64,000 nucleotides of DNA. Origin: Arcobacter sp. Its GTDB lineage: Bacteria; Campylobacterota; Campylobacteria; Campylobacterales; Arcobacteraceae. Numbering within the stretch: position 1 is the stretch's first letter; each line of letters starts with the position of its first letter. The position numbers and the translations under genes are program-made. Of this stretch, positions 25,653 to 63,905 are shown piece after piece. The notes beneath the pieces are model-generated. The model was not told the origin of the DNA, ran no database searches, and worked only from the letters and a program-made list of their open reading frames with translations. The stretch is taken from the NCBI GenBank assembly GCA_002869565.1, contig PKUJ01000025.1, positions 1 through 64,000 on the forward strand. Direction: 5' to 3'.

Positions 25653-26858
25653 TTAACTATTTCCTTTTATATTTTTATAACTATATTTGCCAGATACATA
25701 TCCTATCATTAACCATATTATTATTGAAGAATATGGTGTACGTAAGGGAGTATTGATATTAAAACTTACTAAAATTAATGCTATTAACAATATACCTATT
25801 AGTTGAAAATTTTTCTCTATTTTTGATAAAGAGAACGATTTAAATATTGTTAATAAAAAAATCAACAATATTGATATTGGAAAGAAAATTCCACCTTTAA
25901 CAAAATATTCAACCCATTGATTATGAAAAGTTCCTTCAGGAAAAACATTTGATATAATAAATCCCTCCCCAATGAAAATATTCAAATCTAAGAGATATTC
26001 ATAAAAACGTTTTAATTGCTCAATTCTCCCACCTGAAAGATTACTCCCTTCTACAGATGAATCTAATAATAATATAATCTTATTATATAAGTATAACTCT
26101 CTAAAATCAATTAAAAAATAGGCAATAATAATTATAATTAGTAATATATATATAAAATTCATAATTTTATATATTGAAAACTTATTAATATTCCTAATAA
26201 AATATATAAGATACATAAAAATTAGCATTGCTAAAGGTTCCCTTGCAGCAGTAATAATTAATTCTATTACTAGAATCAAAAGGACTAAATATTTAAATCT
26301 TAACTTTAGAAAAGATGCAAAAAATATAATTATAGATAAAACTAAAGGATACGATATTAGTTTTTGATAAATACTCATAATTCCAAATATATTATCTGTA
26401 CCTCTATTTGAAATGGCAAAAGATAAACTTTCATTAATAACTGCATCTAATAAATGGATAGAGGAAAATGTAAATAATGAGTAAATCAATATTTTAAAAA
26501 AATCTTCCAATGAAAAATATCTTATAATTTCTTTTCCAATTAAATATGCAAATATTTGAGGAATAAAATATAATAAAATTAAATTTATATTAAAATTTTC
26601 TCCAATAAACAAAAAAGAAATTAAAAAAGTTATTAACAATATTAATACTGATGACATTTGTAAAATATCAGTATAAGACATTTTAAATGTATTCCTAAAT
26701 AATATAGTTATGCCTAAGACAAAAGTTAAAAAGAATGATAAAGGTAAAACTTGTGCACTGGTAAAAGTTGAATCATTGTATATTCTTCCATCCAAAAAAA
26801 TGTATATAGGTAAAATAATTAAGATTAGATATATTTTTGATATATATTGAACTGACAA
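25653..26858 (-). CDS. wzy: O-antigen polymerase-like membrane protein (Wzy candidate)
   Basis: The 401-residue protein is very hydrophobic, with about 11-12 membrane helices, and has one larger periplasmic loop (roughly residues 265-310) containing SNLSGGRIEQLKRFYEYL and then IGEGFIISNVFPEGTFHNQW. This loop-and-late-helices pattern is that of Wzy/O-antigen ligase proteins. As it sits directly beside wzx, I call it the polymerase that joins repeat units in the periplasm; a second candidate at 58118 is more WaaL-like. Sequence conservation in Wzy is low, so the call relies on topology and context. Confidence 0.75.
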   Translation of the reverse strand: MSVQYISKIYLILIILPIYIFLDGRIYNDSTFTSAQVLPLSFFLTFVLGITILFRNTFKMSYTDILQMSSVLILLITFLISFLFIGENFNINLILLYFIPQIFAYLIGKEIIRYFSLEDFFKILIYSLFTFSSIHLLDAVINESLSFAISNRGTDNIFGIMSIYQKLISYPLVLSIIIFFASFLKLRFKYLVLLILVIELIITAAREPLAMLIFMYLIYFIRNINKFSIYKIMNFIYILLIIIIIAYFLIDFRELYLYNKIILLLDSSVEGSNLSGGRIEQLKRFYEYLLDLNIFIGEGFIISNVFPEGTFHNQWVEYFVKGGIFFPISILLIFLLTIFKSFSLSKIEKNFQLIGILLIALILVSFNINTPLRTPYSSIIIWLMIGYVSGKYSYKNIKGNS

Positions 26859-26860
26859 AA

Positions 26861-28114
26861 CTAACTCTTGATTTTTTTAATATGATAATAAAATAGAGAA
26901 CTTATCAAAATTAAATTTGCAATTGCTCCAAAAATTTGTCCAATAGCTACACCATTAACTCCATATGACATAAATAAATAATATCCAATAAGTAAACTTA
27001 ATACAGTAGATATTAAAACAATATAAATTGCACTATGAAGAACACCTAAGCCAACTAAGGCACCACCAGTAATAGTATATAATGAAATAATAAGATACTG
27101 AATCATTAATAATTGTAGGATTTCTAGTACTTGTGAATATGATTCTCCATAATAATAATATACTACTACATAAGCTAATATATATAATGAAATAGCAACT
27201 AAAATACTAAAAGGTATCATTAGAGCCTGATATTTTATTAAATTTAATTTTAACCATTCGTAGTTTTTTTCATTTTCACTAAAGTGTGGTGTAATTATAG
27301 ATTGAGCCGTTCCATTAACAATATTTGCTGCTAAAAAAAATACCGTAGCAATGGAATAAAATCCAATTTCTTCCTTATTTGCAGAAAGAAAATCTAATAG
27401 ATAGATATCAGCATTTTTTCCAACAACAGTAATTATCATTCCAATAAAAGTAAAAATTGCATAATTATTGAATTTTTTGATTTTTGATTTATCAATATCA
27501 AATTTAAATATATTCTTATCTAAATCACGGACAAAAATAAGTGTTCCAATAATATAGGATATAATTGTAGAATATATTAGTCCACTAAAACCATATAAAT
27601 ACGTAAAAATAAATATTAAAACTATAAATATTAAACGTACTATAACTTGTAGTTTTGCAACTTTTTTTATTTCTTTTAAGGCTTGAAAATATGATATAAA
27701 AAGATATCCTAAAGCAGCAAAAGGAATAACAATCGAATATCTGTATAGCCAATATTCTACATCACTATTATCTGTAAGAATTCCAAAATATAAGGATATT
27801 AATAATAATATCATTGAAAGAATACTAAAAAATATAACTCTTATGATACTAAGTTTTAGTATCCCTTTCTTTTCAAAAGAAGGTCTTTTTTCAGAAGCAG
27901 TTTTTAAAAGTGCAACATTAAATCCAAAAGTTGCAAATGTTATAAAAAAGACAGCATAAGATTGAATAATTTTTATTGTACCAATTTCTTCCGCAGAGAG
28001 AATTTTTCCCAAAAATAAGATTAATCCAAATCCAAAAAATTGAATTAAAAAATTTGATCCTAATAAATGAAAAAAACCTTTTTGATAAATCTTTTTTAAT
28101 AAATTAACAATCAT
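26861..28114 (-). CDS. wzx: Flippase of lipid-linked glycan (Wzx-like, MATE/MOP superfamily)
   Basis: The 417-residue protein has about 12 membrane helices and the polysaccharide biosynthesis protein pattern (Polysacc_synt): IGTIKIIQSYAVFFITFATFGF early, and AAVFFLAANIVNGTAQ-like region and VGLGVLHSAIYIV later. It should flip undecaprenyl-linked repeat units across the inner membrane. Its start overlaps the upstream GT stop by one base and it lies two bases from wzy. Wzx, Wzy and Wzz all being present argues for the Wzy-dependent assembly route. Confidence 0.88.
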   Translation of the reverse strand: MIVNLLKKIYQKGFFHLLGSNFLIQFFGFGLILFLGKILSAEEIGTIKIIQSYAVFFITFATFGFNVALLKTASEKRPSFEKKGILKLSIIRVIFFSILSMILLLISLYFGILTDNSDVEYWLYRYSIVIPFAALGYLFISYFQALKEIKKVAKLQVIVRLIFIVLIFIFTYLYGFSGLIYSTIISYIIGTLIFVRDLDKNIFKFDIDKSKIKKFNNYAIFTFIGMIITVVGKNADIYLLDFLSANKEEIGFYSIATVFFLAANIVNGTAQSIITPHFSENEKNYEWLKLNLIKYQALMIPFSILVAISLYILAYVVVYYYYGESYSQVLEILQLLMIQYLIISLYTITGGALVGLGVLHSAIYIVLISTVLSLLIGYYLFMSYGVNGVAIGQIFGAIANLILISSLFYYHIKKIKS

Positions 28115-49454: not shown

Positions 49455-50319
49455 GCCTTTAAATATATTAATAACTGGTTCAAATGGACAATTAGGTTCA
49501 GAATTAAGAGAATTATCAAAAAGCTATAGATATAACTTCTTCTTTACAGATAGAAGTGAATTAGATATAACAAACTATGAAGATGTAAGAAAATATATTG
49601 AAGAAAAATCAATTAATACAATTATTAACTGTGCTGCATACACAGCAGTTGATAAAGCAGAAAGTGATGCTGAGTTAGCAGATAAGATAAATCATAGAGC
49701 AGTAAAAAAACTTGCAAAAATTTCACAAGAGAGAGATATAAAACTTATTCATGTTTCAACAGATTATGTTTTTGATGGAAGAAATTATAAACCATATTGT
49801 GAAGAGTATCAAACAAATCCACAATCAGTATATGGGCAAACAAAACTAGATGGTGAATTAGAGATGATTAAGATTAATCCAAAAGATTCTATTATTATTA
49901 GAACTTCTTGGGTTTATTCATCATTTGGTAATAATTTTGTAAAAACAATGTTAAGGCTAGGAAGAGATAAAGATAGTCTAGGTGTAATATTTGATCAAGT
50001 AGGAACACCAACTTATGCAAAAGATTTAGCTAAAACTATTTTAGATATCCTTCCAAAAATAAGTAATGAAAAAGTAGAAATATATAACTATTCAAATGAA
50101 GGTGTTTTATCTTGGTATGACTTCGCAAAAGAGATTATGAAAATGGCAAAAATAGAGTGTGAGATTAATCCAATAGAAACATATCAATACCCAACCCCCG
50201 CAAAAAGACCACATTTTTCACTTTTAAATAAAGCAAAAATAAAAAAAGATTTTAATATAACTATTCCTTTCTGGAAAGACTCTTTAGATGATTGTTTAAG
50301 AACGCTAAAAGTGAGATAA
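49447..50319 (+). CDS. rmlD: dTDP-4-dehydrorhamnose reductase
   Basis: RmlD carries out the last, NADPH-dependent step to dTDP-L-rhamnose. The 290-residue SDR protein has ILITGSNGQLGSEL at the N-terminus, the INCAAYTAVDKAESD segment characteristic of RmlD, VSTDYVFDG, and the catalytic VYGQTKLDGE (Tyr/Lys). It overlaps rmlC, and the next GT gene starts two bases after its stop. Confidence 0.96.
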   Translation: MTKPLNILITGSNGQLGSELRELSKSYRYNFFFTDRSELDITNYEDVRKYIEEKSINTIINCAAYTAVDKAESDAELADKINHRAVKKLAKISQERDIKLIHVSTDYVFDGRNYKPYCEEYQTNPQSVYGQTKLDGELEMIKINPKDSIIIRTSWVYSSFGNNFVKTMLRLGRDKDSLGVIFDQVGTPTYAKDLAKTILDILPKISNEKVEIYNYSNEGVLSWYDFAKEIMKMAKIECEINPIETYQYPTPAKRPHFSLLNKAKIKKDFNITIPFWKDSLDDCLRTLKVR

Positions 50320-50321
50320 GA

Positions 50322-51110
50322 ATGTTTTTAAAAGAGATTGATAGCTTAAAATATGAAAAACTTTTCTCAGTTTGTATTTTAACTGCAAGACAAGATGAAC
50401 TAGAATCAGTGAGTAGTTCTTTTTATAAAGCCGGATTTACAGAAGAAAATAGTGAATATTTATATATTGATAATATTGGACAAAATAAATATGATGCATA
50501 TGATGGATATAATCAATTTTTAAATAAATCAAATGGCGAATATATTATCTTAGCTCATCAAGATTTAGTTTTAGAGTTTGATGATATAGAAATTCTAAAA
50601 CAAAGAATTGAAGAGATGAATAAGCTTGACCCAAATTGGGCGATTCTAGGGAACTGTGGTTTTTCAAAAGATAATATAAACAAAAGATTTACAAGAATCA
50701 CAGATCCAGGTGTTGATAACTTAAAAGAAGGACCTTTTCCTTCAAAAGTTGGAAGTTTAGATGAAAATTTCTTAGTTGTTAAAAATGATGCCAATCTTTG
50801 TTTATCAAAAAATATTGGTCATTATCACTTATATGGAACAGATCTTTGCATACAAGCTCAAAATCAAGGCTTTACTACATATGTAATAGATTTTCATCTA
50901 AGACATAAAAGTGGTGGCTTCCCAAATCAAAGTTTTTACGATACAAAAGATAGATTTATCTCTCAATATCAAAATGCTTTTGAAAGTAGATTTGTAAGAA
51001 CTCCATGTACAATTATGTATATATCAAATAATAAATTTTTAAATAAACTTATGAATAGAAAGTTTATTTATAGTATCAAAAAAAGAATAGATAAGATAAA
51101 AGGAAAATAA
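50322..51110 (+). CDS. GT2-like glycosyltransferase, divergent
   Basis: The protein is a compact GT-A-like enzyme of about 262 residues: FSVCILTARQDELESVSSSF near the start, DGYNQFLNKSNGEYIILAHQDLVL with a DL rather than DxD metal motif, and GTDLCIQAQNQGF followed by DFHLRHKSGG near the C-terminus, which resemble the catalytic-base and His regions of GT2 enzymes. I choose ATG 50322 (MFLKEID), since the upstream in-frame TTG at 50292 lies inside rmlD. It is embedded between rmlD and rmlB, so a rhamnose-related acceptor or donor is likely. Confidence 0.72.
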   Translation: MFLKEIDSLKYEKLFSVCILTARQDELESVSSSFYKAGFTEENSEYLYIDNIGQNKYDAYDGYNQFLNKSNGEYIILAHQDLVLEFDDIEILKQRIEEMNKLDPNWAILGNCGFSKDNINKRFTRITDPGVDNLKEGPFPSKVGSLDENFLVVKNDANLCLSKNIGHYHLYGTDLCIQAQNQGFTTYVIDFHLRHKSGGFPNQSFYDTKDRFISQYQNAFESRFVRTPCTIMYISNNKFLNKLMNRKFIYSIKKRIDKIKGK

Positions 51111-52135
51111 TGCCAAAGAATAAAAATATACTAGTAACAGGATGTGCAGGATTTATAGGTTCAAACTTTGTACCATATTTCTTAGATAAATATCCAGAAT
51201 ATAATTTAATAAATATTGACCTTCTAACATACGCAGGCGACTTAGAAAACTTAAAAGAGTGTGAAACAAATCCTAGATATAAATTTATTAAAGGTGATAT
51301 TTGTAATAGAGAATTAGTAGAATTTATTTTTAGTGAATATGATATTAAAGGTGTTATTCATTTTGCAGCTGAATCACATGTAGATAACTCTATTAAAAAT
51401 CCTGGTGTATTTATGGAAACAAATGTAAATGGAACTTTTACCTTAGTAGATGTTGCACAAAAGTATTGGATGGATAAACCTTTTACTTATAAAGAAGATT
51501 ATAAAGATTGTAGATTTCATCATATTTCAACAGATGAAGTATATGGAACACTTAGCCTTGATCCAGAAGATTTATTTACAGAAACTACACCATATGCTCC
51601 AAACTCTCCATATTCTGCTTCTAAAGCTTCAAGTGATATGATTATTATAGCATATAATGAAACATTTGGATTAAATACAGTTATTACAAACTGTTCAAAT
51701 AATTATGGACCAAAACAACATGATGAGAAACTAATACCAACTATTATTAGAAAAGCACTTTCAAATGAAGCAATTCCAATTTATGGAGATGGTAAAAATA
51801 TTAGAGATTGGTTATATGTACTAGATCACTGTAAAGGGATTGATATAGTTTATCATGCTGGTAAAACAGGAGATACATATAATATTGGTGGAAGAAATGA
51901 AAGAACAAACTTACAAATAGTAGATAGAATTTGTACTATCTTAGATGAAAAAGTTCCACAAGAGAAATCATATAAAGAGCTAATTACATTTGTAGAAGAT
52001 AGAGCAGGACATGATAGAAGATATGCAATTGATGCAAGTAAGTTAGAAAATGAACTTTCTTGGAAAGCTGATGAAAACTTTGACACAGGTATTGTTTTGA
52101 CTGTTGATTGGTATTTGAATAAATATAATAAATAG
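51110..52135 (+). CDS. rmlB: dTDP-glucose 4,6-dehydratase
   Basis: RmlB turns dTDP-glucose into the 4-keto-6-deoxy sugar. The 341-residue SDR enzyme shows ILVTGCAGFIGSNFVPYF, HFAAESHVDNSI, the catalytic STDEVYG (Thr-Asp-Glu), the YSASK pair, and NYGPKQHDEKLIPT. The order rmlA-rmlC-rmlD-GT-rmlB differs from the common rmlBDAC arrangement. It overlaps the downstream gene by one base (TAGTG). Confidence 0.97.
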   Translation: MPKNKNILVTGCAGFIGSNFVPYFLDKYPEYNLINIDLLTYAGDLENLKECETNPRYKFIKGDICNRELVEFIFSEYDIKGVIHFAAESHVDNSIKNPGVFMETNVNGTFTLVDVAQKYWMDKPFTYKEDYKDCRFHHISTDEVYGTLSLDPEDLFTETTPYAPNSPYSASKASSDMIIIAYNETFGLNTVITNCSNNYGPKQHDEKLIPTIIRKALSNEAIPIYGDGKNIRDWLYVLDHCKGIDIVYHAGKTGDTYNIGGRNERTNLQIVDRICTILDEKVPQEKSYKELITFVEDRAGHDRRYAIDASKLENELSWKADENFDTGIVLTVDWYLNKYNK

Positions 52136-53850
52136 TGACTCATCATACAATGTATAACTATAGTAAAGCAGTTTTAGATTCTACTATTACTGAAAGAATT
52201 GAAAATTTTGATAAAAAGTTTTCATTCTCTATAGTTATAAATTGTACAAAAGAGAATCAAAAATATTTAGAAAACATAACAAATTCTATCCGTGAACAAT
52301 GGTATAAAAACTTTAAATTATTCATACTTGTAGATAATGAGAATTCAAAAGAAGAAATATCAAAATTAAATGTAAATGCCTCAACAATAAATATAGAAAA
52401 AAACAAACTTTTTGAAGTCTATAATGATATTATAAAAACAGATGAAAATGATTTTATCTGCTTCCTTGAATCATATGAAACCCTTGAACTATCAGCTTTA
52501 TATGAAATAAATTCAAAATTAAATGAGAGAGATTTAGATTTTATTTATACAAATGAAGATTACATACAAAATAATAAACACATTAAAGTAAACTATAAAT
52601 CAAATATTTCACAAGAGTTAATATTAAGCCAAAACTATATTGGAAAAAGTTCATTTTTTAAACTTTCCATACTAAAAAAAATAGGTTGATTTAATGACTT
52701 TAAGGATGAAAGTACTTTCTATGATTTAAATTTAAGACTAATAGAAAACAATTCTAACATTTACTTTTTAGATAAAGTTTTATTTCATATTGATTTAGAT
52801 AAAAAAAATGATTTTTCTAAAAGTGAAGATAAACTTATTTTAAAAAGTATGCTTAAAAGAAGAAATTTAGATGCTTCTATTGAAGATGGGTTAATAGAAT
52901 CTTCTTATAGAATAAAATATTCCATAAAATATGAACCTCTTGTTAGTATTGTTATTCCTTTTAAAGACCAACCCCACTTTCTTCAACAATGTATTAATTC
53001 AATTTTAGATTTAAGTACATATAAAAACTTTGAAATTATTGGTATATCAAATAATAGTGAAGAAGAAAAAACTTTTCAATATATGAAAGAGTTTAAAAGA
53101 AAAGATAAAAGAATAAAATTTATAGAACACAACGTAGCTTTTAATTTTTCTGAAATCAATAACTTTGCAGTAAAAGAGCATACAAAAGGTGAGCACATTA
53201 TCTTTTTAAACAATGATATAAAGATAATAAGTGAAAATTGGATTGAATCTATGTTAGAGTTCTCTCAACAAGAAGAGATAGCTTGTGTTGGTTCTTTACT
53301 TTATTATGAAAATAATACTATTCAACATTGTGGTATAAAAGTTGGAGGAGATAATATAGCTCAGCATTTTTTAGCTTTTCTAAAAAAAGACTCTGCTAGT
53401 TATTCAAATAGAGAACTTCTAATACAAAATGTGACCGCTGTAACAGCTGCTTCACTTATGATAAAAAAAGATCTGTTTTTAAAAATTGGTGCCTTTGATG
53501 AAAATCTAACAGTTGCATATAATGATGTTGATTTATGCATTAAAGCTGTAAAGGATGGAAAAAGAAATATCTTTACTCCCTATTCTAAAGCATACCATTT
53601 TGAATCTGTATCTAGAGGATATGATAAATCTGACGAGAAAAGAAACAGGCTAATAAGAGAGCAAAACTCTTTAAAAGAAAAACATCAAAAATTTTTGGAA
53701 CTTGAAGATCTATATATAACAGATAATCTTTTCAATGAAATGCAATTTCAAATTCATAATGTCAAAAATAAAAATATCTTCAAGCAAGTTAGAATTTATT
53801 CTAAACCTATAAGACAAAAACTAAAAAATATATTTAAAAGGTCAAAATAA
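52135..53850 (+). pseudogene. Tandem GT2 glycosyltransferase split by an in-frame TGA
   Basis: One reading frame runs from a GTG start at 52135 to 53850, broken only by TGA at 52687-52689. The N-terminal part (184 residues) is a GT2-like domain ending in LSQNYIGKSSFFKLSILKKIG; family members continue GGF at this point, so TGA probably replaces GGA. The frame stays open beyond, with FNDFKDESTFYDLNLRLIEN, and a second GT2 domain starting PLVSIVIPFKDQPHFLQQC with INNFAVK, LNNDIKI, GAFDENLTVAYNDVDLC. Such double-domain enzymes make rhamnan-type chains. It could be a recent pseudogene, a sequencing error, or read-through. An ATG at 52849 could restart translation of the second domain, but has no ribosome site. 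Confidence 0.88.
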
Positions 53851-53852
53851 AA

Positions 53853-54818
53853 ATGCAAAATCCTCTTATTTCTGTAGCTATGTGTACATATAATGGTGGC
53901 AAATACCTAGTAGAACAATTAGAATCTATTGTAAACCAAACATATAATAATATTGAAATTATAATTTGTGATGATGGTTCAAAAGATAATACAATTGAAA
54001 TAATAAAAGAGTACTGTGATAAATATGATTTTATTCAACTTTTTGAAAATGAAATAAACCTAGGCTTTGTAAAAAACTTTGAAAAATCAATATCTTTATG
54101 CAAAGGTGATTATATTGCACTTGCAGATCAAGATGATATATGGAAAAAAAATAAACTAGAAGTATTTATCTCAGAAATTAAAGATAATTTACTAATATAT
54201 TCTGATGCCATAATTATGGATGGAGATAGTAATATATCAAATAATGAATTAATTCGTCCAAAAGGTGATTTAGTAAAAGGGAAATGTAATAAAGCTTTCC
54301 TATTTACAAATTGTGTTTCAGGAAATACTTTGATGTTTAAAAAAGAGATATTAGAATATATTTTACCAATTCCAGAAAATATCACATATCACGATATTTG
54401 GATTGCTTTTATTGCTTCAAGTTATGGAACAATCACTTTTTCTGATGAAGCTATGACTTATTATAGAAGATATTCAGAGCAAATTACTAAAACAAGAGAA
54501 AAAGATTATAAAAATTTCAAAGATAGATTTAATACTAAAAAAGAATCAAATATAAAATCTGCAAAAGATGCTATTGCAAATTTAACAATTTTTAAAAAAA
54601 TTGAAGTATTAGATGATGAAATAAAACAAATTATTGAGACTTCGTTAAATCACCTAAATAATTTTGAAAATAAGTATTTTAGTATAGAATTATATAAACT
54701 ATTAAAAAAATACAAAAATGAAATATTTGCAATAAAAAAGAAAAATAAAAGAATTAAATATGTAAGAAGAATGAGCTATGGGTTAAAAGCTCATATGGCT
54801 TCTTTATTTACGATTTAA
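53853..54818 (+). CDS. Glycosyltransferase, GT2 (rhamnosyltransferase-like)
   Basis: The 321-residue enzyme has ISVAMCTYNGGKYLVEQLES at the start, IICDDGSKDNTIEII near residue 38, NEINLGFVKNFEKSIS, the DxD-type ADQDDIWKKNK near residue 92, and CVSGNTLMFKKE. This is the pattern of RfgB/WbbL-like dTDP-rhamnosyl transferases. It is the last gene of the plus-strand block and lies two bases after the split GT2 gene. Its 3' end overlaps the convergent gene at 54804 by 15 bases. Confidence 0.88.
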   Translation: MQNPLISVAMCTYNGGKYLVEQLESIVNQTYNNIEIIICDDGSKDNTIEIIKEYCDKYDFIQLFENEINLGFVKNFEKSISLCKGDYIALADQDDIWKKNKLEVFISEIKDNLLIYSDAIIMDGDSNISNNELIRPKGDLVKGKCNKAFLFTNCVSGNTLMFKKEILEYILPIPENITYHDIWIAFIASSYGTITFSDEAMTYYRRYSEQITKTREKDYKNFKDRFNTKKESNIKSAKDAIANLTIFKKIEVLDDEIKQIIETSLNHLNNFENKYFSIELYKLLKKYKNEIFAIKKKNKRIKYVRRMSYGLKAHMASLFTI

Positions 54819-55904
54819 ACCTTTTTCTAAGTCATATACTTTTGTTTGCTTGTTTAAAGTATTAGAGTACTCTTTTAAGTTTTGTGATGTTACTAAATAT
54901 TTGTTTTTTGACATTTGTTCTAACATCCAATAATTTATCTTGTCAGAATAATGAGTTAAATCTTTATAGTTATCTAAATTATGAGTAATACTTTTTTCTA
55001 TTTGAAAATCATATAATTTAACATTTTTAAAATCTTTAAGATTTTCAAATATATACTCCTTAAATTTTAAATGGTCATCAAAATAATTGCCCATTTCCAT
55101 TGTTTTATATTGAACAATAGAATATGGTGGAAAAAATAAATAAAACTCTTTTTCTTTATTGTTTTTAACTATAGGTAAAAATACATTGTCAAATCTTTCT
55201 TTTAAAATTTCAAATCTATATGTCTTTTCTACAATACCAGGAGTTAATTTTTCTTCATAAATAAACTTTTTATACCAACTATTATAATCATTTTTAAAAG
55301 TCCAGGCAGTAAAAAACTCTGAATATAAACTTTGCCATTCATATAAAGTATTTAATGTATTTGATATTTTTTCTTTATCATAAGGGGAAGAAAAGGCTTC
55401 AATTGATTCTTTTAATACATTAAAATTTAATAAATAAGGAGTATCATTTAAAATATTATTATCATACAAATATTCAGGAAATTTAGGATCTTGTTTAGTA
55501 GGTCTTGCTAATTCACTAAATGCATATACATCCAAACCCATTAATATATTTTTTAAATTTTTATTGCTTAAAAGAGCATTTTCTATTGTTTTTACTTCTT
55601 CAAAAATTGTACCACCTCTAGTGGCCAATTTTAAAAGTTTTCTAAAACCTAAAAATTTCTCAATATCGTTTGCATAAAAATTTTCAACCATTGAAGACCC
55701 AACTAATATAGAGTCGTAATCATAATTTTTAGCTAATCCAGCATTTAAATATCGAGGTTTATCTGTTTTAAAAGTATAAAAGTTAGCTTTTCTATATTGT
55801 TGAAAAGGGTCAACAAAATAATTTGTAGTGATTACTAATAAAAGTAATACAAAACATGTAATAATTAATATATTTGCCCATTTTTTATATTTTTTTAAAC
55901 TCAT
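54804..55904 (-). CDS. SGNH-like membrane-anchored protein, divergent
   Basis: The 366-residue protein has one N-terminal membrane helix (residues about 12-30) and a periplasmic domain. SILVGSSMVENF at 65-77 is like an SGNH block I in which the Asp of GDS is Ser, and DLTHYSDK at 315-322 fits a block V with Asp315 and His318. It is unlike the three GDSFSN paralogues next to it but ends the same operon. It may be an esterase/acetyltransferase-type protein with altered specificity or a structural partner. I do not recognise a named family. It overlaps the convergent GT2 gene by 15 bases. Confidence 0.7.
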   Translation of the reverse strand: MSLKKYKKWANILIITCFVLLLLVITTNYFVDPFQQYRKANFYTFKTDKPRYLNAGLAKNYDYDSILVGSSMVENFYANDIEKFLGFRKLLKLATRGGTIFEEVKTIENALLSNKNLKNILMGLDVYAFSELARPTKQDPKFPEYLYDNNILNDTPYLLNFNVLKESIEAFSSPYDKEKISNTLNTLYEWQSLYSEFFTAWTFKNDYNSWYKKFIYEEKLTPGIVEKTYRFEILKERFDNVFLPIVKNNKEKEFYLFFPPYSIVQYKTMEMGNYFDDHLKFKEYIFENLKDFKNVKLYDFQIEKSITHNLDNYKDLTHYSDKINYWMLEQMSKNKYLVTSQNLKEYSNTLNKQTKVYDLEKGLNRK

Positions 55905-55917
55905 ATAAATTTAATTC

Positions 55918-57009
55918 CTAAAACTTGAAATTCTTAAATAAAATGTCTGATGCTTTATATGTCCAGTGAGTATCATCTGAATAATAAATATCTTTTTTAC
56001 CTTTTTCTAACTCTTTTAACAAAATAGCTTTTGTATCAATTAAAGTATAATCTTTAGGCAACTCTCTCAAGTTTTCAAAGAAAACACTCTTCGGATACTT
56101 ATTATCTATTAAAAAATCTGCATACAAATTATATTTATCAGCTGCTGGCATAAAATACAGTTTAATGCCCTTCTTATTTAGCATTTTTGCCAAGGCATTA
56201 AAATTGTCATTCAATTTTTTTATATTCTTTTGTGTTGCTTTATGAATTGAATCTAAATCATCTTTAAAAAACATTAAACTCCGGGTATCAATAGACGTGA
56301 AAAAATCTTTTGACAACTCTTTTTTATAACATTTTGAAGAGTAAGCTCTATCATTAAAATTATAAAGAATATTGTTTTTTAATGCCTTAAAATTCTGATT
56401 ATTTATAAATTTAATATCTTTGTCTTTTCCTAAATAAGGATTCTTTAATTTCTTAAACTTATCAATACTAACTTGTGCTAATTCATTTTTTGCAAAATCT
56501 GTATCAACAGAAAATCTATCTATACTAAACCTTTCTACTGATTCAATTAAAATATATTTAGGCTTCATTTTATCAAGTAATCCATTGTTATTTAATATTG
56601 AAATTGTTTCTAAATAGTTTAAAGCCCCTGATAATTGATTAATATTCAAGACCTTGAAATTATTGTATGTAGCGATATAATCTTGATAAAAAGGATTCGT
56701 TCCTTGAGTTGCAGCATTTGAAAAAGAATCTCCAATAGTTAGAACATCTATAGGTTCTTGTTTTTTAAACCATTGATTAAAATCCATATGCTCTTTTTCA
56801 AGATTTACACTTTTTTCTGAAGGATAAGACTGTCTAGGAAAAGCGGCATCTGGATACATAGACATTCTTCCTAAATCACCTGTGTAAATATTATCATGAA
56901 CAAGAAGAACATGGTTTGTATATTTTTCCCAAACAACATAATGGAAAAGAACAGTTAATGATAATAAAAATATAAAACCAATTACAAATTTTTTATAAAT
57001 ACTTGTCAA
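55918..57009 (-). CDS. AlgJ/AlgX-like SGNH O-acetyltransferase, paralogue 1
   Basis: The 363-residue protein has an N-terminal membrane anchor (residues about 8-26) and a periplasmic SGNH domain of the AlgJ/AlgX (DHHW-type) family. Block I is IGDSFSN (Ser96 the nucleophile region, residues 93-98) and block V is SDDTHWTYKAS (Asp345, His348). A conserved KLYFMPAADKYNLYADF segment precedes the end. Family members transfer acetyl groups, received via an MBOAT partner, to polysaccharide in the periplasm. It overlaps the next paralogue by four bases. Confidence 0.85.
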   Translation of the reverse strand: MTSIYKKFVIGFIFLLSLTVLFHYVVWEKYTNHVLLVHDNIYTGDLGRMSMYPDAAFPRQSYPSEKSVNLEKEHMDFNQWFKKQEPIDVLTIGDSFSNAATQGTNPFYQDYIATYNNFKVLNINQLSGALNYLETISILNNNGLLDKMKPKYILIESVERFSIDRFSVDTDFAKNELAQVSIDKFKKLKNPYLGKDKDIKFINNQNFKALKNNILYNFNDRAYSSKCYKKELSKDFFTSIDTRSLMFFKDDLDSIHKATQKNIKKLNDNFNALAKMLNKKGIKLYFMPAADKYNLYADFLIDNKYPKSVFFENLRELPKDYTLIDTKAILLKELEKGKKDIYYSDDTHWTYKASDILFKNFKF

Positions 57010-58106
57010 AACCTAACCTTTTTAAAAATTACTTCACTTGCTTTGTAAGACCAATGGGTATCATCAGAATAATATATATCTTTTTTATCTTTTGCAAGTT
57101 CTTCCAATAAAATTTTTTTAGTATCAATTAAAGTATACTTTTGAGGGAACTTCCTTAATAACTCAAAAAATTTACTTTTTGGATACTTACCTCCAGATTC
57201 TAAATATTTAGAATACAAATTGTATTTATCCACAATAGGCATAAAATATAATTTAATACCTTTCTTCTCTAAAATCTCAGCTAAGATATTAAAATTATAA
57301 TTTAATTTTTCTACTTTTTCTTTTGTTGATAATATTATATTATCTATATCTTGTTTTAAAAATAAAAGAGAAGATTTATCTTGTGAAGAAAAAAGTTCTT
57401 TTTTTAGCGGTTCTATATATACACCAGAAAACAAACCTTCATTCCCATACAATTTGAATAATATATTATTTCGTAAAGCCCTAAAATTGTTTATATTTAT
57501 AAAATCTAATTGTTTATTATAATCTTTACTATTAAAAAAATAGTATCTACTATTTTTTAAAGTGTTGTACAAAGTATTGTTTTCATCTTTAGCTGAAAAA
57601 TCAATATCATTGCTAAATCTCTCAATAGAAAATCTTTCTACCGATTGAATTAAGATATATTTTGGTTTTATCTTATCTAGAATATTACTATTATTTAACA
57701 TTGAAATAATTTCAATAAAATTATATTTATCAATAATATCTCTAGGAATATTTAATACATTTTTATTATTATATGTCGCAATATAATCTTGATAAAAAGC
57801 ATTTAAACCTTGGGTATCACCATTTGAAAAAGAATCACCAATAGTAATTACATCAATCTCTTCATCTTTCCAATCTTGCAAAGAGATATGCCTCTTTTTT
57901 AAATTAACTCTCTTCTCATTATAAAAAGAATATCGAGGAAATACACTGTCAGTTTTATAACATTTTCTAGTTAAATCACCCTTATAGATCTGTGAATCAG
58001 TTATAACTACATATTTAGTATATAAATTCCATATAGAAATATGGAAACAAAGTAAAAGAATTACTACAATCAAGAAAAAAAATGTGAACTTTTTATATAT
58101 CATCAT
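57006..58106 (-). CDS. AlgJ/AlgX-like SGNH O-acetyltransferase, paralogue 2
   Basis: This 366-residue paralogue has the same plan: anchor helix (about 7-25), ITIGDSFSNGDTQG (block I at 90-95), the repeated IKLYFMPIVDKYNLYSKY segment, and SDDTHWSYKAS near the C-terminus (Asp348, His351). It has a short extra stretch near residue 210-230 relative to its neighbours. It lies between paralogue 1 (4-base overlap) and the WaaL-like gene (11-base gap). It probably accepts acyl groups from the MBOAT protein at the head of the operon. Confidence 0.85.
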   Translation of the reverse strand: MMIYKKFTFFFLIVVILLLCFHISIWNLYTKYVVITDSQIYKGDLTRKCYKTDSVFPRYSFYNEKRVNLKKRHISLQDWKDEEIDVITIGDSFSNGDTQGLNAFYQDYIATYNNKNVLNIPRDIIDKYNFIEIISMLNNSNILDKIKPKYILIQSVERFSIERFSNDIDFSAKDENNTLYNTLKNSRYYFFNSKDYNKQLDFININNFRALRNNILFKLYGNEGLFSGVYIEPLKKELFSSQDKSSLLFLKQDIDNIILSTKEKVEKLNYNFNILAEILEKKGIKLYFMPIVDKYNLYSKYLESGGKYPKSKFFELLRKFPQKYTLIDTKKILLEELAKDKKDIYYSDDTHWSYKASEVIFKKVRF

Positions 58107-58117
58107 TATTATTTATA

Positions 58118-59401
58118 CTAGTTAACTTGTTCGTTTTGTTCAAAATTATATTGAACAACTACAATAGATAAAAATAAGCCAAATAGAAGCATAAATTCAT
58201 AAAAGAAAAATATATCACCAGGAATTGCAACAAAAAAGAAAATAGAACTAATACTATATGCAATGAATTTCACTTGCTTATCATTCAAAAACATTGAAAA
58301 AATATAATAAAAGAGCATAAGTAATAAAAATAAACCTACAATTCCATTAGAAATTATTATTTCAAGAAACATATTGTGTAATCTTCCATAATTAAAAAAA
58401 TTTTTGATTTTATATGGATATTTAGTTTCCTCTAACCTAGTCATAATATAATTCTCTTTTTCACCCATTCCAACACCAAATAGTAGATATTTAGGTTCTA
58501 CGATATATGAAAAAGCATGAAAAGCAAGTACTCTATCCCCAATACTTGAATCCTTTTTATTTTTTGAAAACAATAAAGTATTTATATCTTCTACAGAATA
58601 ATTAATTCTTGCATTAAAAGTATTAATATTTTTATATGCGAAAAAAAGAACTCCAATTATCAAAAACAATGAAATAAGAATTTTTTTTAAATCCATCCTA
58701 TTATAAACAATCATTATTGTAAGTAATGAAAGTATTAAAGAAAGTTGTCCAGTCCTACCTGAAGACATAAATAAATTTATAGTTAATACAATAAAAAAAA
58801 TCAAATACAAAAATTTTATATATTTATTATTCTCACTTATTAACTTATAAATAGTTAATAAAATAGTAAATGCTACAAAAACACTGTATGTTATATGACT
58901 TATCTGAAAAGGTATAGGATTAGAGGGACTACTTAAAAAACCAACAGTACTCCATAATTCAAAAAATATCCCATACGATACAATTGTATTTATAAACATT
59001 GAGAATAAAAAACTATTAATAAGCCATGGAATATATTTAGCTTTTAACACCGTCACAATAATGATTATAGGAATTAAAAAATATATAGAATAAGTTTTAG
59101 AAAAGATATTAAAATCCCCATATACAGTATTAGGATAACTGCCACTCCAAAGATAAGACAAAAATATTAATGCACTTAAAGCTAGAACTAATTGAAAGAC
59201 TCTATTAATTTTTATGGCACTTAAAACATCTTTATAATTAACAGTAAAAATCCACAATACAAATAAAATTTCAACAAATTGTTTAGTTATATAGTATTGA
59301 AAAGGGATTACAAAAGCGTAAGCAATTATTAAATAGTTTAATAATAAATTTAATTTTCCTCTAATTAAAGTAATCTTCGCAAAAACTAATTCTTTAGTCA
59401 A
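58118..59401 (-). CDS. waaL: O-antigen ligase-like membrane protein (WaaL candidate)
   Basis: The 427-residue protein has about 11 to 12 membrane helices and a large periplasmic loop carrying RVLAFHAFSYIVEPKYLLFG and GRLHNMFLEIIISNG, which fits the conserved Wzy_C/O-antigen ligase region with a His. In WaaL, such a loop joins undecaprenyl-linked O-chain to lipid A-core. As wzx, wzz and another polymerase-like protein are elsewhere in the locus, ligase is the better call, though Wzy cannot be excluded. It lies between two SGNH paralogues and overlaps the third by eight bases. Confidence 0.75.
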   Translation of the reverse strand: MTKELVFAKITLIRGKLNLLLNYLIIAYAFVIPFQYYITKQFVEILFVLWIFTVNYKDVLSAIKINRVFQLVLALSALIFLSYLWSGSYPNTVYGDFNIFSKTYSIYFLIPIIIIVTVLKAKYIPWLINSFLFSMFINTIVSYGIFFELWSTVGFLSSPSNPIPFQISHITYSVFVAFTILLTIYKLISENNKYIKFLYLIFFIVLTINLFMSSGRTGQLSLILSLLTIMIVYNRMDLKKILISLFLIIGVLFFAYKNINTFNARINYSVEDINTLLFSKNKKDSSIGDRVLAFHAFSYIVEPKYLLFGVGMGEKENYIMTRLEETKYPYKIKNFFNYGRLHNMFLEIIISNGIVGLFLLLMLFYYIFSMFLNDKQVKFIAYSISSIFFFVAIPGDIFFFYEFMLLFGLFLSIVVVQYNFEQNEQVN

Positions 59402-60470
59402 ACTTTACCTTTTCAAATATAGCTTCACTTGCTTTATAAGACCAGTGGGTATCATCTGAATAATAGATATCCTTTTTATCTTTTTTTAATTCTTCTAATA
59501 AAATTTCTTTTGTATCTATAAAAATATATTTTTTTGGTAAAACTCTTAAATACTCAAAAAAAGTACTTTTAGGATACTTGTTATCCTCTATAAAACCTGA
59601 ATATAAATTATATTTATCAACTGCTGGCATAAAATATAATTTAATTCCTTTTTTGGCTAATACATCTGCTAATTTATTAAAATTTTTATTTAGAATTTCT
59701 ACATTTTCTTTTGTAGCAAAATGTAATCTTTTATAATCATGTTTATAAGTAAGTAAAGTGTTTGGTGCTTTAGCAGTAAACATGTCTTTTTTTAAAGTGT
59801 GTTTATAAACTTGAGAACCATAAGCATTATCTTTAAAATTGTAAAGTACATTATATTTAAAAGCATTAACATTCAAATTTGATATAAAGGAATTTATAGT
59901 CTCTTTAGCTAAAGGTCCTCCTTGAAATTGATTTCTTGAGTCTTGAAATTTCTTTTCAATATCTTTATCATCCATTTTCAGATTTAAATCAGTAGGCATA
60001 GTAAATCTTCGTATTGCTTCTCTTTCAACTGATTCTATTAATACATATTTAACTTTTGTTTTTTTTAAAAAGCCACTGTTATTTAAAACTGCGATTGTAT
60101 TCAAATAATTATCATTAGAAGTAAGTTGTTTAATATTTAGAACTTCAAAATCATTTATAGAAGCTATATAATCTTCATAATATGTATTTTTACCATTTCC
60201 TCCACCATTTGAGAAAGAATCACCTAAAGTTAAAACATCAATAGGTCTTCCATCCCATTTATAAACTTCGATATGTTTTTTGGGTAAATCAAATTCATTT
60301 TTTCTAGGACTTAAACTATCTTTTAAATAAGACATTCTTCCTAAGTCCCCAATATTAAAGTTTTCAGGAAATACATATTTTGTATATACATTCCACACTG
60401 TAAAATGAAATACAATAAGTAATGCTAATATTAGTAAAAAACTATATGTGAACTTTTTATAATTAATCAA
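59394..60470 (-). CDS. AlgJ/AlgX-like SGNH O-acetyltransferase, paralogue 3
   Basis: The third paralogue, 358 residues, has an anchor helix (about 8-25), VLTLGDSFSNGGGNGKN (block I at 83-88), IKLYFMPAVDKYNLYSGF, and SDDTHWSYKAS near the end (Asp339, His342). It is the member nearest the MBOAT gene (eight bases away). The three copies share anchor, block I and C-terminal segments but differ in the middle, where acceptor recognition would be expected. Their presence around one MBOAT suggests that several hydroxyls or substrates are modified. Confidence 0.85.
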   Translation of the reverse strand: MINYKKFTYSFLLILALLIVFHFTVWNVYTKYVFPENFNIGDLGRMSYLKDSLSPRKNEFDLPKKHIEVYKWDGRPIDVLTLGDSFSNGGGNGKNTYYEDYIASINDFEVLNIKQLTSNDNYLNTIAVLNNSGFLKKTKVKYVLIESVEREAIRRFTMPTDLNLKMDDKDIEKKFQDSRNQFQGGPLAKETINSFISNLNVNAFKYNVLYNFKDNAYGSQVYKHTLKKDMFTAKAPNTLLTYKHDYKRLHFATKENVEILNKNFNKLADVLAKKGIKLYFMPAVDKYNLYSGFIEDNKYPKSTFFEYLRVLPKKYIFIDTKEILLEELKKDKKDIYYSDDTHWSYKASEAIFEKVKFD

Positions 60471-60478
60471 AAAATTCC

Positions 60479-61936
60479 TTAGAAATTAAAATATAAAAAT
60501 TCTGATAGCTTATTCATATTTGATACGGTGTAACATATTAAGATAGCACTATAAATTAGATACCAAATATTTGGTTTAAATGTATCTTTTAACTCCATAG
60601 CATTCTTCATAAATACAGTAATTATAAAAGCAACAGCTATCCAGGTAAAACTCTTATTTCCATTAATATGAACTAACCATCCGCCAAATTCTACTCCGTA
60701 ATCTGAAAGGGAAGCATATTTTTCGGCAAACTTATCTGACATAACTATTCCATTTAATCCTGCCATACCTTTTAATACTTTTATAGCATCTTCCCACTCT
60801 TTTGCTCTAAAAAATACCCATGTGATATTTACAAAGTTAAAAGTTATAAACCAAGCTAAAACCATATTCATATTAAAGCCCATAGTTTTCCATAATCTGT
60901 GAATACCTAATGCAAATCCATGCAAAAATCCCCAGAAAATAAATGTCCATCCAGCTCCATGCCAAAATCCACCAAGGATAAATGTAATCATCAAGTTATT
61001 ATATGTTTTAAAATTTCCTTTTTTATTTCCACCTAGAGGAATATAAATATAATCTCTTAAAAATCTTCCTAATGTAATATGCCATCTTCTCCAGAAATCT
61101 TGTATATCTAATGCTTTATATGGTGAATTAAAGTTTATAGGTAATTTTATATTAAATAAAAGTGCTGCACCAACAGCCATATCACAGTATCCACTAAAGT
61201 CAAAATACAATTGGAAAGTATAAGACAATGCAGTTGCCCAAGCTTCAAAAAATTCCAAAGTTACAGCATTATCAAAACCTGCACTTGCCCAAATAGCAAA
61301 TTGATCAGCTATTATTACTTTTTTAAACAATCCAATTGAGAAGATAAACATCCCAGTTGCAATATTTTTATAGTTTTTTACCAAACTCCATTTTGATGCA
61401 AATTGAGGCATCATCTCTTTATGATGTACAATTGGCCCTGCAATTAGCTGAGGGAAGAAAGTTACAAACAGTGCATAATTTAAAAAATCATACTCTCCTG
61501 TTTCTCCTCTGTAAGAATCAACTAAATAAGCAATTTGTTGGAAGGTAAAAAATGAAATTGCTAAAGGAAGAGCTAAATGTAATAATTCAATATTATCATT
61601 TGTAACAGAATTAAGATTACTGATAAAAAAATCTGCATATTTGAAATATCCAAGTAATGACAAGTTTGCAATTACACCAACGGTAAGAAGAGATTTCTTT
61701 GAAATTTTTATTTTCTTAAAATTATCATTTAAAGAATTACCAATAATAAAATTAAAAAGCATCGAAGTCAAAATCAAAGGTAGATATATTGGATTCCACC
61801 AACTATAAAAGAACAATGAACTAAATACTAAAAAGCCTTTTGCTCCTACTACCAACCTTTTGTTCAAAAGATAAAAATATATAAAAAATGTTATGGGTAA
61901 AAATATAAATATAAATTCGTAACTGTTAAATAGCAT
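60479..61936 (-). CDS. MBOAT-family O-acyltransferase (AlgI-like)
   Basis: The 485-residue membrane protein is of the MBOAT family, which passes acyl groups (usually acetyl) across the membrane to a periplasmic acceptor or partner. Key marks are FQLYFDFSGYCDMAVG at 241-256, FWRRWHITLGRFLRDYIYIP at 281-300 with His286, and GGFWHGAGWTF at 322-332 with the invariant His326. The first residues MLFNSYEFIFIFLPITFFIY are typical of AlgI/DltB. A GGGGA ribosome site and a good promoter precede it. It heads the operon of the SGNH proteins and the ligase. Confidence 0.95.
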   Translation of the reverse strand: MLFNSYEFIFIFLPITFFIYFYLLNKRLVVGAKGFLVFSSLFFYSWWNPIYLPLILTSMLFNFIIGNSLNDNFKKIKISKKSLLTVGVIANLSLLGYFKYADFFISNLNSVTNDNIELLHLALPLAISFFTFQQIAYLVDSYRGETGEYDFLNYALFVTFFPQLIAGPIVHHKEMMPQFASKWSLVKNYKNIATGMFIFSIGLFKKVIIADQFAIWASAGFDNAVTLEFFEAWATALSYTFQLYFDFSGYCDMAVGAALLFNIKLPINFNSPYKALDIQDFWRRWHITLGRFLRDYIYIPLGGNKKGNFKTYNNLMITFILGGFWHGAGWTFIFWGFLHGFALGIHRLWKTMGFNMNMVLAWFITFNFVNITWVFFRAKEWEDAIKVLKGMAGLNGIVMSDKFAEKYASLSDYGVEFGGWLVHINGNKSFTWIAVAFIITVFMKNAMELKDTFKPNIWYLIYSAILICYTVSNMNKLSEFLYFNF

Positions 61937-62028: not shown

Positions 62029-62913
62029 TTATTTATAAATTCCTAAATAAATATCTTTCCATCGTCTATGCAACCAAAACCAATCATCAGGCTTTTCTAA
62101 AATTTGATTACTCATAGCATCTGCTTGAAGTTGTGTGATTTTATTTACATCATTATCATATAAAGAAGGGTCAATTTCTGGGCAAAATTTAATAGTATAT
62201 TTTCGAAAATCATCTTTTATAAAAAATACAGGAATTATTACTGCTCCAGTTTTAATTGCAATTCTAGTTGAAGAATCAGTTTGAACTGCATCATGTCCTA
62301 GAAATTTTATTAACTCACCTCTATTAACAGGAACATGTTGATCTATTGCAAGACCTACAATTCTATTGTCTCTTAATGCTTTTATTAGACCTTTAGCAGA
62401 GCCTTTTTTGTCAAGCATTTCACTATTATGTTTTTCTCTAGCAACTCTTAGATCTTCATTTAAATATTTATTGTTTAATGGTCGTCCAACCATTGTAGTA
62501 GGTGAATATTTTAGTGATATATAAGAAGTAATATATTCCCAATTTCCATAATGTGCAGAAATCAAAATTATCTTTTTTTCTTCTTTTAATGCAGAAAGAA
62601 TAATATCTTCATTAATTATAGTAATTTTTTTTTCTAATTCTTCTAAGCCTAAAAATTCATTTTCGATATGTTCATATAAATTAAAAAACAAATTATAATA
62701 TGAATTTTGAATGATTTCATTTTTTCTTTCTAAGGAAATTGTATCTTTATATACTAGGTCTAAATTTATTTTTGAATATCTTTTATGTTTATAATCAATT
62801 AAATAAACAAATTTTGCTAAAAAAATCAGCAGATATTTCATTATACTTTTTGGAACAATAAGAACAATTCCTCGGAAAATTTTATAGATTATAAAAATTA
62901 AGTAATCTTTCAA
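62029..62913 (-). CDS. Lipid A late acyltransferase (LpxL/HtrB-like)
   Basis: The 294-residue protein adds a secondary fatty acyl chain to Kdo-lipid A precursor. A single N-terminal membrane-associated region is followed by the catalytic HX4E motif in ISAHYGNWEYITS (His121, Glu126), then GRPLNNKYLNEDLRVAREKH and VGLAIDQHVP near residues 140-210, and the C-terminal WFWLHRRWK. The length is at the short end of the family (about 290-310), as is usual in Campylobacterota. It follows waaC with a four-base overlap, as often seen in the LOS locus. Confidence 0.94.
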   Translation of the reverse strand: MKDYLIFIIYKIFRGIVLIVPKSIMKYLLIFLAKFVYLIDYKHKRYSKINLDLVYKDTISLERKNEIIQNSYYNLFFNLYEHIENEFLGLEELEKKITIINEDIILSALKEEKKIILISAHYGNWEYITSYISLKYSPTTMVGRPLNNKYLNEDLRVAREKHNSEMLDKKGSAKGLIKALRDNRIVGLAIDQHVPVNRGELIKFLGHDAVQTDSSTRIAIKTGAVIIPVFFIKDDFRKYTIKFCPEIDPSLYDNDVNKITQLQADAMSNQILEKPDDWFWLHRRWKDIYLGIYK

Positions 62914-63905
62914 TATAAAAGTACCCTCGCCATGCTAATTATTAAGTTTTCATCAATTTCAACTATAGAAAAATCATTTTTATCAAGTTTGAAATGATTT
63001 ACTTCAGAATTAGATTTTACCACCTTATTTATTGATGTTTGATAAACTCTATTTATAGGTGTTGGTCCAAAGATTGTAATTGAGGGAATATTTAATCCCC
63101 AAGCCATATGAGTAGGTCCGGTATCATTACCTATTAAAAGCTCAGAATTAGCTATTAAAGCCTTTAAAGAATTTAGATTAATCTTAGGCATAGCCTTTGT
63201 GTAGGAGGATTTCTCTTCAATCCATAAGGCTTTTTGTCTTTCATCTTCATTTCCCCAGACTATTAAACAATTTTCTTTTAACTCATCTGCAATTTTTGCA
63301 AATTTCTCTTTTGGATAATTTCTACTTTCCCAAGTAGACCCAACTACAAATATAATATTTTTTTTATCTTTTGATAAATAATCATATATAATTTTCTCTT
63401 CATTTTCAAAAAATAAAAACTTCTCTTTTTCTATAATTTCATTTTTCGTGATTTCAAACTTTAAAGGAGAAGAGAGTACTTTTGCATTTCTATCTATAGT
63501 ATTTTCATCATACGCAATATTTACTTTAGTATTATAAAAAAATGAAGCTACCCCTTCTCTAATAGAGTTTTTGTCAAAACCTGCAATATTTTTTCCTAAA
63601 AGTTTTGAAACAATTGCCGATTTAATTAAACCTTGGCCATCAATAATTAAATCATAATCATTTTTTGAATATTGCTTTATTAATTTAATTTGAGAAAATA
63701 GATTTTTTTTATTTTTTTTTATAGATTTTAAATCTAATTTGTAGATATTATCAATATCAGGATTGTACTCTAATACAGAAGCAAAAGCTTTTTCTACAAA
63801 CCAATCAATTTGAATATTAGGAATTTGTTTTTTTATAAACTGTAAAGCAACCATAGCATGAATAATATCACCCATTGCAGAAAGTTTTACAATAGCTAAT
63901 TTCAT
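62910..63905 (-). CDS. waaC: ADP-heptose:LPS heptosyltransferase I
   Basis: WaaC adds the first heptose to Kdo of the inner core. The 331-residue GT9 protein has IVKLSAMGDIIHAMVALQFIK at the N-terminus with the conserved Asp, then IIFVVGSTWESRNYPKEKF near residue 190, and LIGNDTGPTHMAWGLNIPS near 257. The SAMGD opening distinguishes WaaC from WaaF. It overlaps the preceding gene by one base (TAATG) and the lpxL-like gene by four. It forms one border of the LOS region, with the heptose synthesis genes at the other side. Confidence 0.95.
   Translation of the reverse strand: MKLAIVKLSAMGDIIHAMVALQFIKKQIPNIQIDWFVEKAFASVLEYNPDIDNIYKLDLKSIKKNKKNLFSQIKLIKQYSKNDYDLIIDGQGLIKSAIVSKLLGKNIAGFDKNSIREGVASFFYNTKVNIAYDENTIDRNAKVLSSPLKFEITKNEIIEKEKFLFFENEEKIIYDYLSKDKKNIIFVVGSTWESRNYPKEKFAKIADELKENCLIVWGNEDERQKALWIEEKSSYTKAMPKINLNSLKALIANSELLIGNDTGPTHMAWGLNIPSITIFGPTPINRVYQTSINKVVKSNSEVNHFKLDKNDFSIVEIDENLIISMARVLLY

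Follow-up and report, generated by a model that had tools for sequence, protein, structure and literature searches.

An Arcobacter lipopolysaccharide operon combining one MBOAT exporter with four SGNH-type proteins: a candidate glycan acylation module

One exporter and four SGNH-type proteins in an operon

The window analyzed here, a 64,000-nucleotide stretch of Arcobacter sp. DNA (contig PKUJ01000025.1), carries at 54804-61936 an operon of six intact, closely packed minus-strand open reading frames (ORFs) in the order MBOAT-SGNH3-ligase-SGNH2-SGNH1-SGNH4, as described in an original prediction made from the sequence alone. We give an even chance to the proposal that it encodes a lipopolysaccharide (LPS) glycan acylation module with one donor and many writers, in which four periplasmic SGNH acyltransferases draw on one MBOAT and act at different positions. 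Very probably, several acceptor-side SGNH enzymes do share one MBOAT, as had been predicted for three such enzymes; four is the better count, given the MBOAT neighborhood of the SGNH4 family and the gene content of a second genome, G259, both described below. The genes, their motifs, their conservation and recurrence and the division of the SGNH proteins into two classes are directly observed.

The exporter gene (60479-61936) encodes a protein of 485 residues that scores 124.1 bits with Pfam MBOAT and matches the solved DltB structure (2.9e-24), with homology over residues 125-351. Its conserved His339 (FLHGF) aligns, on the basis of sequence only, with the His of DltB FHGI. The protein ends in FLYFNF (residues 480-485, including Tyr482; codons at 60482-60499), which matches the acyl-shuttle motif FXYXXF and forms the C-terminal end in 26 of 28 MBOAT rows, the remaining two being fragments of split genes. 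A passage of PMC12148441 describes that PatA auto-acetylates the Tyr of FXYXXF and that PatB takes acetyl from such a peptide. By homology, the window's MBOAT would take an acyl group, probably acetyl, from cytoplasmic acyl-CoA onto its own Tyr482, and the acyl-Tyr tail, at the periplasmic face, would pass it to the catalytic Ser of membrane-anchored SGNH enzymes. SGNH3, which belongs to an always-present class, SGNH2 and SGNH1, which belong to a class marked by a Thr, and SGNH4 might then transfer it to different hydroxyls or sugars of the O-antigen or core.

SGNH3 (59394-60470), the first gene after MBOAT, follows it with an 8 bp gap and encodes the motifs GDSFSNGGGNG and DDTHW; it was assigned by Pfam ALGX, tree and fold model. 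It overlaps by 8 bp the nested gene for an O-antigen ligase-type (Wzy_C) membrane protein (58118-59401), which is separated by 11 bp from SGNH2 (57006-58106; GDSFSNGDTQG, Thr98). SGNH2 in turn overlaps by 4 bp SGNH1 (55918-57009; GDSFSNAATQG), in which alignment columns place Thr101 (codon 56707-56709) six residues past the nucleophile Ser95; both were assigned by Pfam ALGX, tree and motif rows. After a 13 bp gap, SGNH4 (54804-55904) encodes a divergent SGNH-like partner with GSS at residues 69-71 and DLTHY at 315-319, recognized from a 22-row alignment and its MBOAT neighborhood.

Two classes of SGNH proteins

The residues that follow GDSFS are NGG, NGA or similar in most members of the SGNH1-3 family and NAAT or N(A/G)DT in SGNH1 and SGNH2. 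Among 32 rows, 9 have a Thr six residues past the catalytic Ser, and every one of these comes from a multi-copy locus; the other 23 have no Thr there. On this basis it was predicted, before the three tandem copies of genome G583 were read, that exactly one of them would lack Thr, and this fitted: the MBOAT C-terminus of that locus is followed consecutively by one GDSFSDGGG copy, two GDSFSNGAT copies and an SGNH4 (46% identity). In the resulting 35-row set, Thr occurs in 11 rows, all within six multi-copy loci, each of which has exactly one copy without Thr; the 18 rows outside these loci lack it (L103, which has no GDSFS match, was placed with the rows without Thr). Two more single-copy genomes, G374 and G429, also lack it.

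The Thr-bearing rows do not form one group. Those of G239 fall inside a different clade from the remaining Thr rows, and monophyly of all Thr rows was rejected by the approximately unbiased (AU) test (p 1.6e-4 with 32 rows, 5.2e-5 with 35 rows; the group was defined only once the tree was known). Two columns, Tyr42 and Thr101, are parallel between the two Thr-bearing groups, a number that is unremarkable, as at least two were also reached by 15 of 300 pairs of other rows; Thr101 is the only perfectly separating column, and no such column was found for any other of the 300 pairs. We take this as two independent origins of a putative second acceptor class, one in the Sulfurimonas-family genome G239 and one in the clade of the window, G370 and G583. 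The Thr position lies in the least certain stretch of the SGNH3 model (residues 87-92).

Two sequence classes within one locus might also reflect a relay, in which the acyl group passes from MBOAT to one SGNH protein and from there to a second, terminal SGNH transferase, as has been proposed for AlgJ/AlgX and WssI/WssF (a passage of PMC10302187). The copy without Thr adjoins MBOAT in five of the six multi-copy loci, but in G239 it comes last. Moreover, SGNH1-3 are full-length paralogs of one kind, with equal catalytic motifs and no carbohydrate-binding module, and in 18 single rows the class without Thr acts by itself. We consider a relay unlikely.

Old paralogs conserved within the genus

Of the 16 genomes available for the genus, three carry the family (the window's own, G000, and G014 and G015), with three copies in each, and the order HepI-HtrB-MBOAT-SGNH3-ligase-SGNH2-SGNH1-SGNH4 is common to all three, which takes the arrangement beyond chance. 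Among these congeners, orthologs are 59-73% identical, as against 46-52% between paralogs, and each orthologous trio of SGNH1, SGNH2 or SGNH3 has 99-100% tree support. The SGNH genes have ratios of nonsynonymous to synonymous substitution rates (dN/dS) of roughly 0.14-0.35, and MBOAT has 0.06-0.08; these values are rough because dS is near or above 1. The MBOATs of G014 and G015 are 85-89% identical to that of the window; the exporter is the most conserved part of the operon and the transferases change faster. A recent duplication or pseudogene reading, under which the paralogs would be near-identical copies with signs of decay, is rejected in view of the old orthologous groups, the intact ORFs and dN/dS well below 1.

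The same comparison bears on plain redundancy, whereby three interchangeable SGNH copies would raise dosage. Identical catalytic motifs and a common operon are compatible with this; against it, the three proteins of the window share only 50-54% pairwise identity, their separate orthologous groups have been kept in three species, and 15 positions are fixed within but differ between the SGNH1, SGNH2 and SGNH3 groups, although these were counted in nine sequences and three per group are few. Redundancy appears to us very unlikely.

Recurrence and donor sharing outside the genus

Searches of three overlapping genome samples gave matches to the SGNH1-3 family in 10 of 104, 21 of 398 and 16 of 397 genomes, or 27 genomes with any match, two of which are weak matches with stops. 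More than one copy is present in G000, G014, G015, G370, G239 and G583, the last three of these in two other families, beyond the window's own genus and family. In four members of the window's own family (L026, L027, L028 and L031) each SGNH has an exporter of its own, in the order MBOAT, SGNH4 type, MBOAT and a member of the SGNH1-3 family of SGNH3 type, the first MBOAT of L031 being split into two ORFs; because these loci have one MBOAT for each SGNH, the operon in the window looks like the same set placed on one donor. In G259 the single MBOAT of the whole genome is flanked by four SGNH-like genes and a ligase-type gene.

We regard it as somewhat short of an even chance that these loci represent a conserved LPS system with one MBOAT whose acyl-Tyr tail swivels among one universal SGNH without Thr, one or two SGNHs of the Thr class and at least one of the SGNH4 type, each acting on an acceptor of its own. 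The Thr class would then be a second specificity with two origins, and the system would be extensible to the six SGNH-like genes of G583.

MBOAT genes in two overlapping ORFs were seen in L031 (11272-12731) and L011 (8586-9984); assembly errors or on-off switching are both possible.

Family and fold of SGNH1-3

SGNH1, SGNH2 and SGNH3 score 38.5, 26.6 and 27.4 bits with Pfam ALGX (cut-off 26.5), and the matches cover only the DTHW half of that model (profile positions 10-122 of 268). The catalytic blocks of SGNH1-3 are GDSFS and then DTHW, and the Ser block precedes DTHW (or DSHW, DAHW) in 32 of 33 family rows, the 33rd being L103. In contrast, AlgJ and AlgX are circularly permuted, with the order H-S-G-Y and the D/H block before the Ser (a passage of PMC4148444). 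When doubled SGNH proteins were scanned with Pfam, the DTHW half of ALGX matched twice and no match crossed the joint. Judged by its motifs, the catalytic order of SGNH1-3 is canonical, with Ser first, as in PatB, and the AlgJ-like family assignment of the original prediction has to be given up: the label suits the DTHW block, not the architecture. PatB was absent among the Pfam matches listed at E <= 1 for SGNH1-3 and from the Protein Data Bank (PDB) profile search, and PDB sequence searches with the SGNH profiles gave nothing meaningful.

A fold model of SGNH3 from eight sequences (pLDDT 77.6, pTM 0.77) matched the structures of an acetyl-xylan esterase (7toh, Z 9.9), PatB (7tjb, Z 9.2), the periplasmic domain of a Salmonella LPS acetyltransferase (6se1, Z 8.3) and Campylobacter PatB (8tlb, Z 8.0). 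The predicted structure is a canonical SGNH fold. AlgJ and AlgX were not among the listed rows of this comparison, which re-aligned only the top 1000 Foldseek chains and so carries no weight on this point.

That many structural neighbors of the SGNH3 model are acetylesterases would accord with a write-and-erase arrangement, in which at least one SGNH protein is an esterase that removes acyl groups, like Ape1 beside PatA/PatB; a PatA-PatB-Ape1 operon is described in a passage of PMC12148441. The members of the SGNH1-3 family, however, mostly lie directly behind MBOAT, and SGNH4 does likewise. We regard an eraser among the SGNH proteins as quite improbable.

SGNH4 as a partner of MBOAT

Relatives of SGNH4 were found in 18 of 104 genomes of the family and none in viral contigs. 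In the 22-row alignment Gly69, Ser71 and His318 are invariant at the motif level, and two of the 22 members touch DUF1574 and one ALGX. With the three operon copies excluded, 15 of 18 homolog rows immediately follow a same-strand MBOAT ORF; of the other three, two are pieces of one broken gene behind MBOAT and one is a fragment without an ORF. By this neighborhood SGNH4 is a genuine MBOAT partner, and its assignment as a putative SGNH transferase rests on motifs and neighborhood. In favor of the proposal, the MBOATs of G000 and G014 outside the operon each adjoin an SGNH4-type partner of their own.

In G583, two further SGNH4-like ORFs (L140, 5573-6628 and 6668-7759) lie behind the four SGNH genes, the first of them without the DxxH-type pattern, making six SGNH-like genes in all behind one visible MBOAT end.

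Several observations weigh against a single exporter serving four transferases on LPS. We infer both the acceptor and the acyl group. The window's own genome has two MBOATs in total, the second of which (on contig C16, followed by an SGNH4 paralog of about 45% identity) could serve some of the four SGNH enzymes. For G239 (contig C13, L094) the whole-genome search returned no MBOAT at E <= 0.001, and the contig ends just upstream of the locus. SGNH4 gave no Pfam or NCBIfam match, its tie to SGNH1-3 is weak (hhalign probability 28.5%), and its fold prediction, made without an alignment, failed (pLDDT 37.6); one more SGNH4-like protein in each of G583 and G259 has no match to the C-terminal DxxH-type pattern. 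The SGNH3 model is itself of moderate quality, and Foldseek alone gave one match at E <= 0.001.

The ligase and the LPS setting

The nested membrane protein scores 59 bits with Wzy_C (cut-off 31.7), and its profile has a single PDB match at E <= 1, the solved polymerase/ligase 7tpg (2.8e-14), which we take to be WaaL. Because a second, weaker Wzy_C ORF in the window (25653-26858) adjoins a flippase-type ORF (26861-28114), the nested protein is probably the ligase and the other the polymerase, judging from context. Its nesting is kept in G000, G014 and G015 and in G239, whose locus has three SGNH copies, the nested ligase (Wzy_C 57 bits) and an added glycosyltransferase. In G583 the ligase gene is located about 8.5 kb past the SGNH cluster, and in G370 the distance is about 8 kb. 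The suggestion that modification is coupled to O-chain ligation is not supported, and we rejected it, because outside the genus only G239 retains the nesting; the ligase speaks for LPS as the target but is hardly informative on coupling.

In the window the module sits between lipid A and core genes (waaC-htrB) and rml genes, and at most other loci read it lies among core glycosyltransferase or rml genes. A figure legend in PMC6477937 lists MBOAT and O-antigen ligase at an Arcobacter butzleri locus. The position of the module, together with the ligase, argues against an acceptor in peptidoglycan or another surface glycan, with the LPS position of the genes being incidental. Such an acceptor would agree with the action of the known Gram-negative PatA/PatB on peptidoglycan, with the presence of only two MBOATs in the window's own genome, and with the bacterial MBOAT targets named in a passage of a 2022 review (PMC9558356), which are alginate, peptidoglycan, teichoic acid and cellulose and do not include LPS. 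We judge it improbable, if anything slightly more so than an eraser.

A glycosyltransferase-like ORF at 50292-51110 (sub-threshold GT2) has relatives near the SGNH loci of G014, G370, G583, G259 and G198 (49-84% identity), and might add the sugar that becomes acylated. At 52135-53850 a glycosyltransferase is present as two ORFs (184 and 333 residues), as against one of 530 residues in G014; it is split and possibly broken.

Relation to known acylation systems

The description of the operon as a system of a kind not known was too strong. Pairing of a single MBOAT with two SGNH proteins is already established in the alginate system (AlgI with AlgJ/AlgX) and has been proposed for cellulose (WssH with WssI/WssF), according to passages of PMC9487903 and PMC10302187. 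In the open-licence literature covered, as titles, abstract starts and passages, we recognized no description of an MBOAT that serves three or more SGNH enzymes, nor of MBOAT-SGNH acylation of LPS. The alginate system resembles the operon in that its MBOAT has several SGNH partners, and SGNH1-3 pass the ALGX cut-off, although AlgJ/AlgX are permuted, are two proteins and not four, act on a different polymer and are matched by the window's proteins over less than half of the profile. WssFGHI likewise has two SGNH proteins beside its MBOAT, but WssI and WssF are AlgJ/AlgX homologs and the polymer and locus are others.

PatA/PatB of Neisseria and Campylobacter share with the module an MBOAT with C-terminal FXYXXF, a separate periplasmic SGNH enzyme and canonical residue order, and PatB structures are matched by the SGNH3 model; in contrast to the four SGNH proteins in an LPS locus, they have one SGNH transferase per MBOAT and act on peptidoglycan, and no PatB sequence match was detected in the searches described above. 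DltB-DltX-DltD, which carries out teichoic acid D-alanylation, is alike in its homologous MBOAT and acyl-Tyr shuttle and unlike in that the window's MBOAT misses the cut-off of the DltB equivalog TIGR04091 (151.4 versus 375 bits) and has the shuttle motif fused to it. OafA/OafB, AT3-SGNH O-acetyltransferases of LPS, would have the same acceptor and have a similar SGNH fold (6se1), whereas their acyl export is by a fused AT3 domain and not by MBOAT.

The proven exporter-transferase models are one-to-one pairs. The operon offers a natural set of paralogs on one donor, with a sequence mark near the catalytic Ser by which they fall into classes, and so makes donor sharing and acceptor choice accessible. 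If the proposal is true, MBOAT-SGNH chemistry would extend to LPS and a single export machine could write several surface marks.

Transcription and neighboring genes

Upstream of the operon, on the same strand, lie htrB/lpxL for a lipid A acyltransferase (62029-62913; NCBIfam NF006270, 260.6 bits versus a cut-off of 248) and waaC for heptosyltransferase I (62910-63905; TIGR02193, 274.9 bits versus 185.3). The single promoter proposed for the operon is the least secure element of the original prediction: a promoter-like sequence with an 11/12 match is present upstream of MBOAT at 61996-61968, although such sites occur in the region at chance level (75 observed versus 73.7 +/- 9.9 in shuffles). 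Because htrB ends only 92 bp before MBOAT on the same strand, transcription may start further upstream than this site. On its 3' side the operon stands tail to tail with a glycosyltransferase and the rml genes.

Besides the operon carriers, 12 congeners have an htrB match; six of the seven that were read have htrB followed by ORFs of 116-118, 265-275 and 661-668 residues, which in G001, the only one scanned, encode a diacylglycerol kinase, a sub-threshold RIO-type kinase and a sulfatase-family protein. G004 has, in this order, a ligase-type gene, a glycosyltransferase gene and two successive pairs of MBOAT and SGNH4-type genes. Because congeners carry different gene sets there, the place behind htrB appears to be a variable site for LPS tailoring genes.

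Elsewhere in the window, the O-antigen region encodes at 21626-25649 a heparinase II/III-type protein beside a 726-residue ORF that joins alcohol-dehydrogenase and GFO/IDH/MocA domains, and an ATP-dependent DNA ligase (266 residues) is located among envelope genes at 11600-12400.

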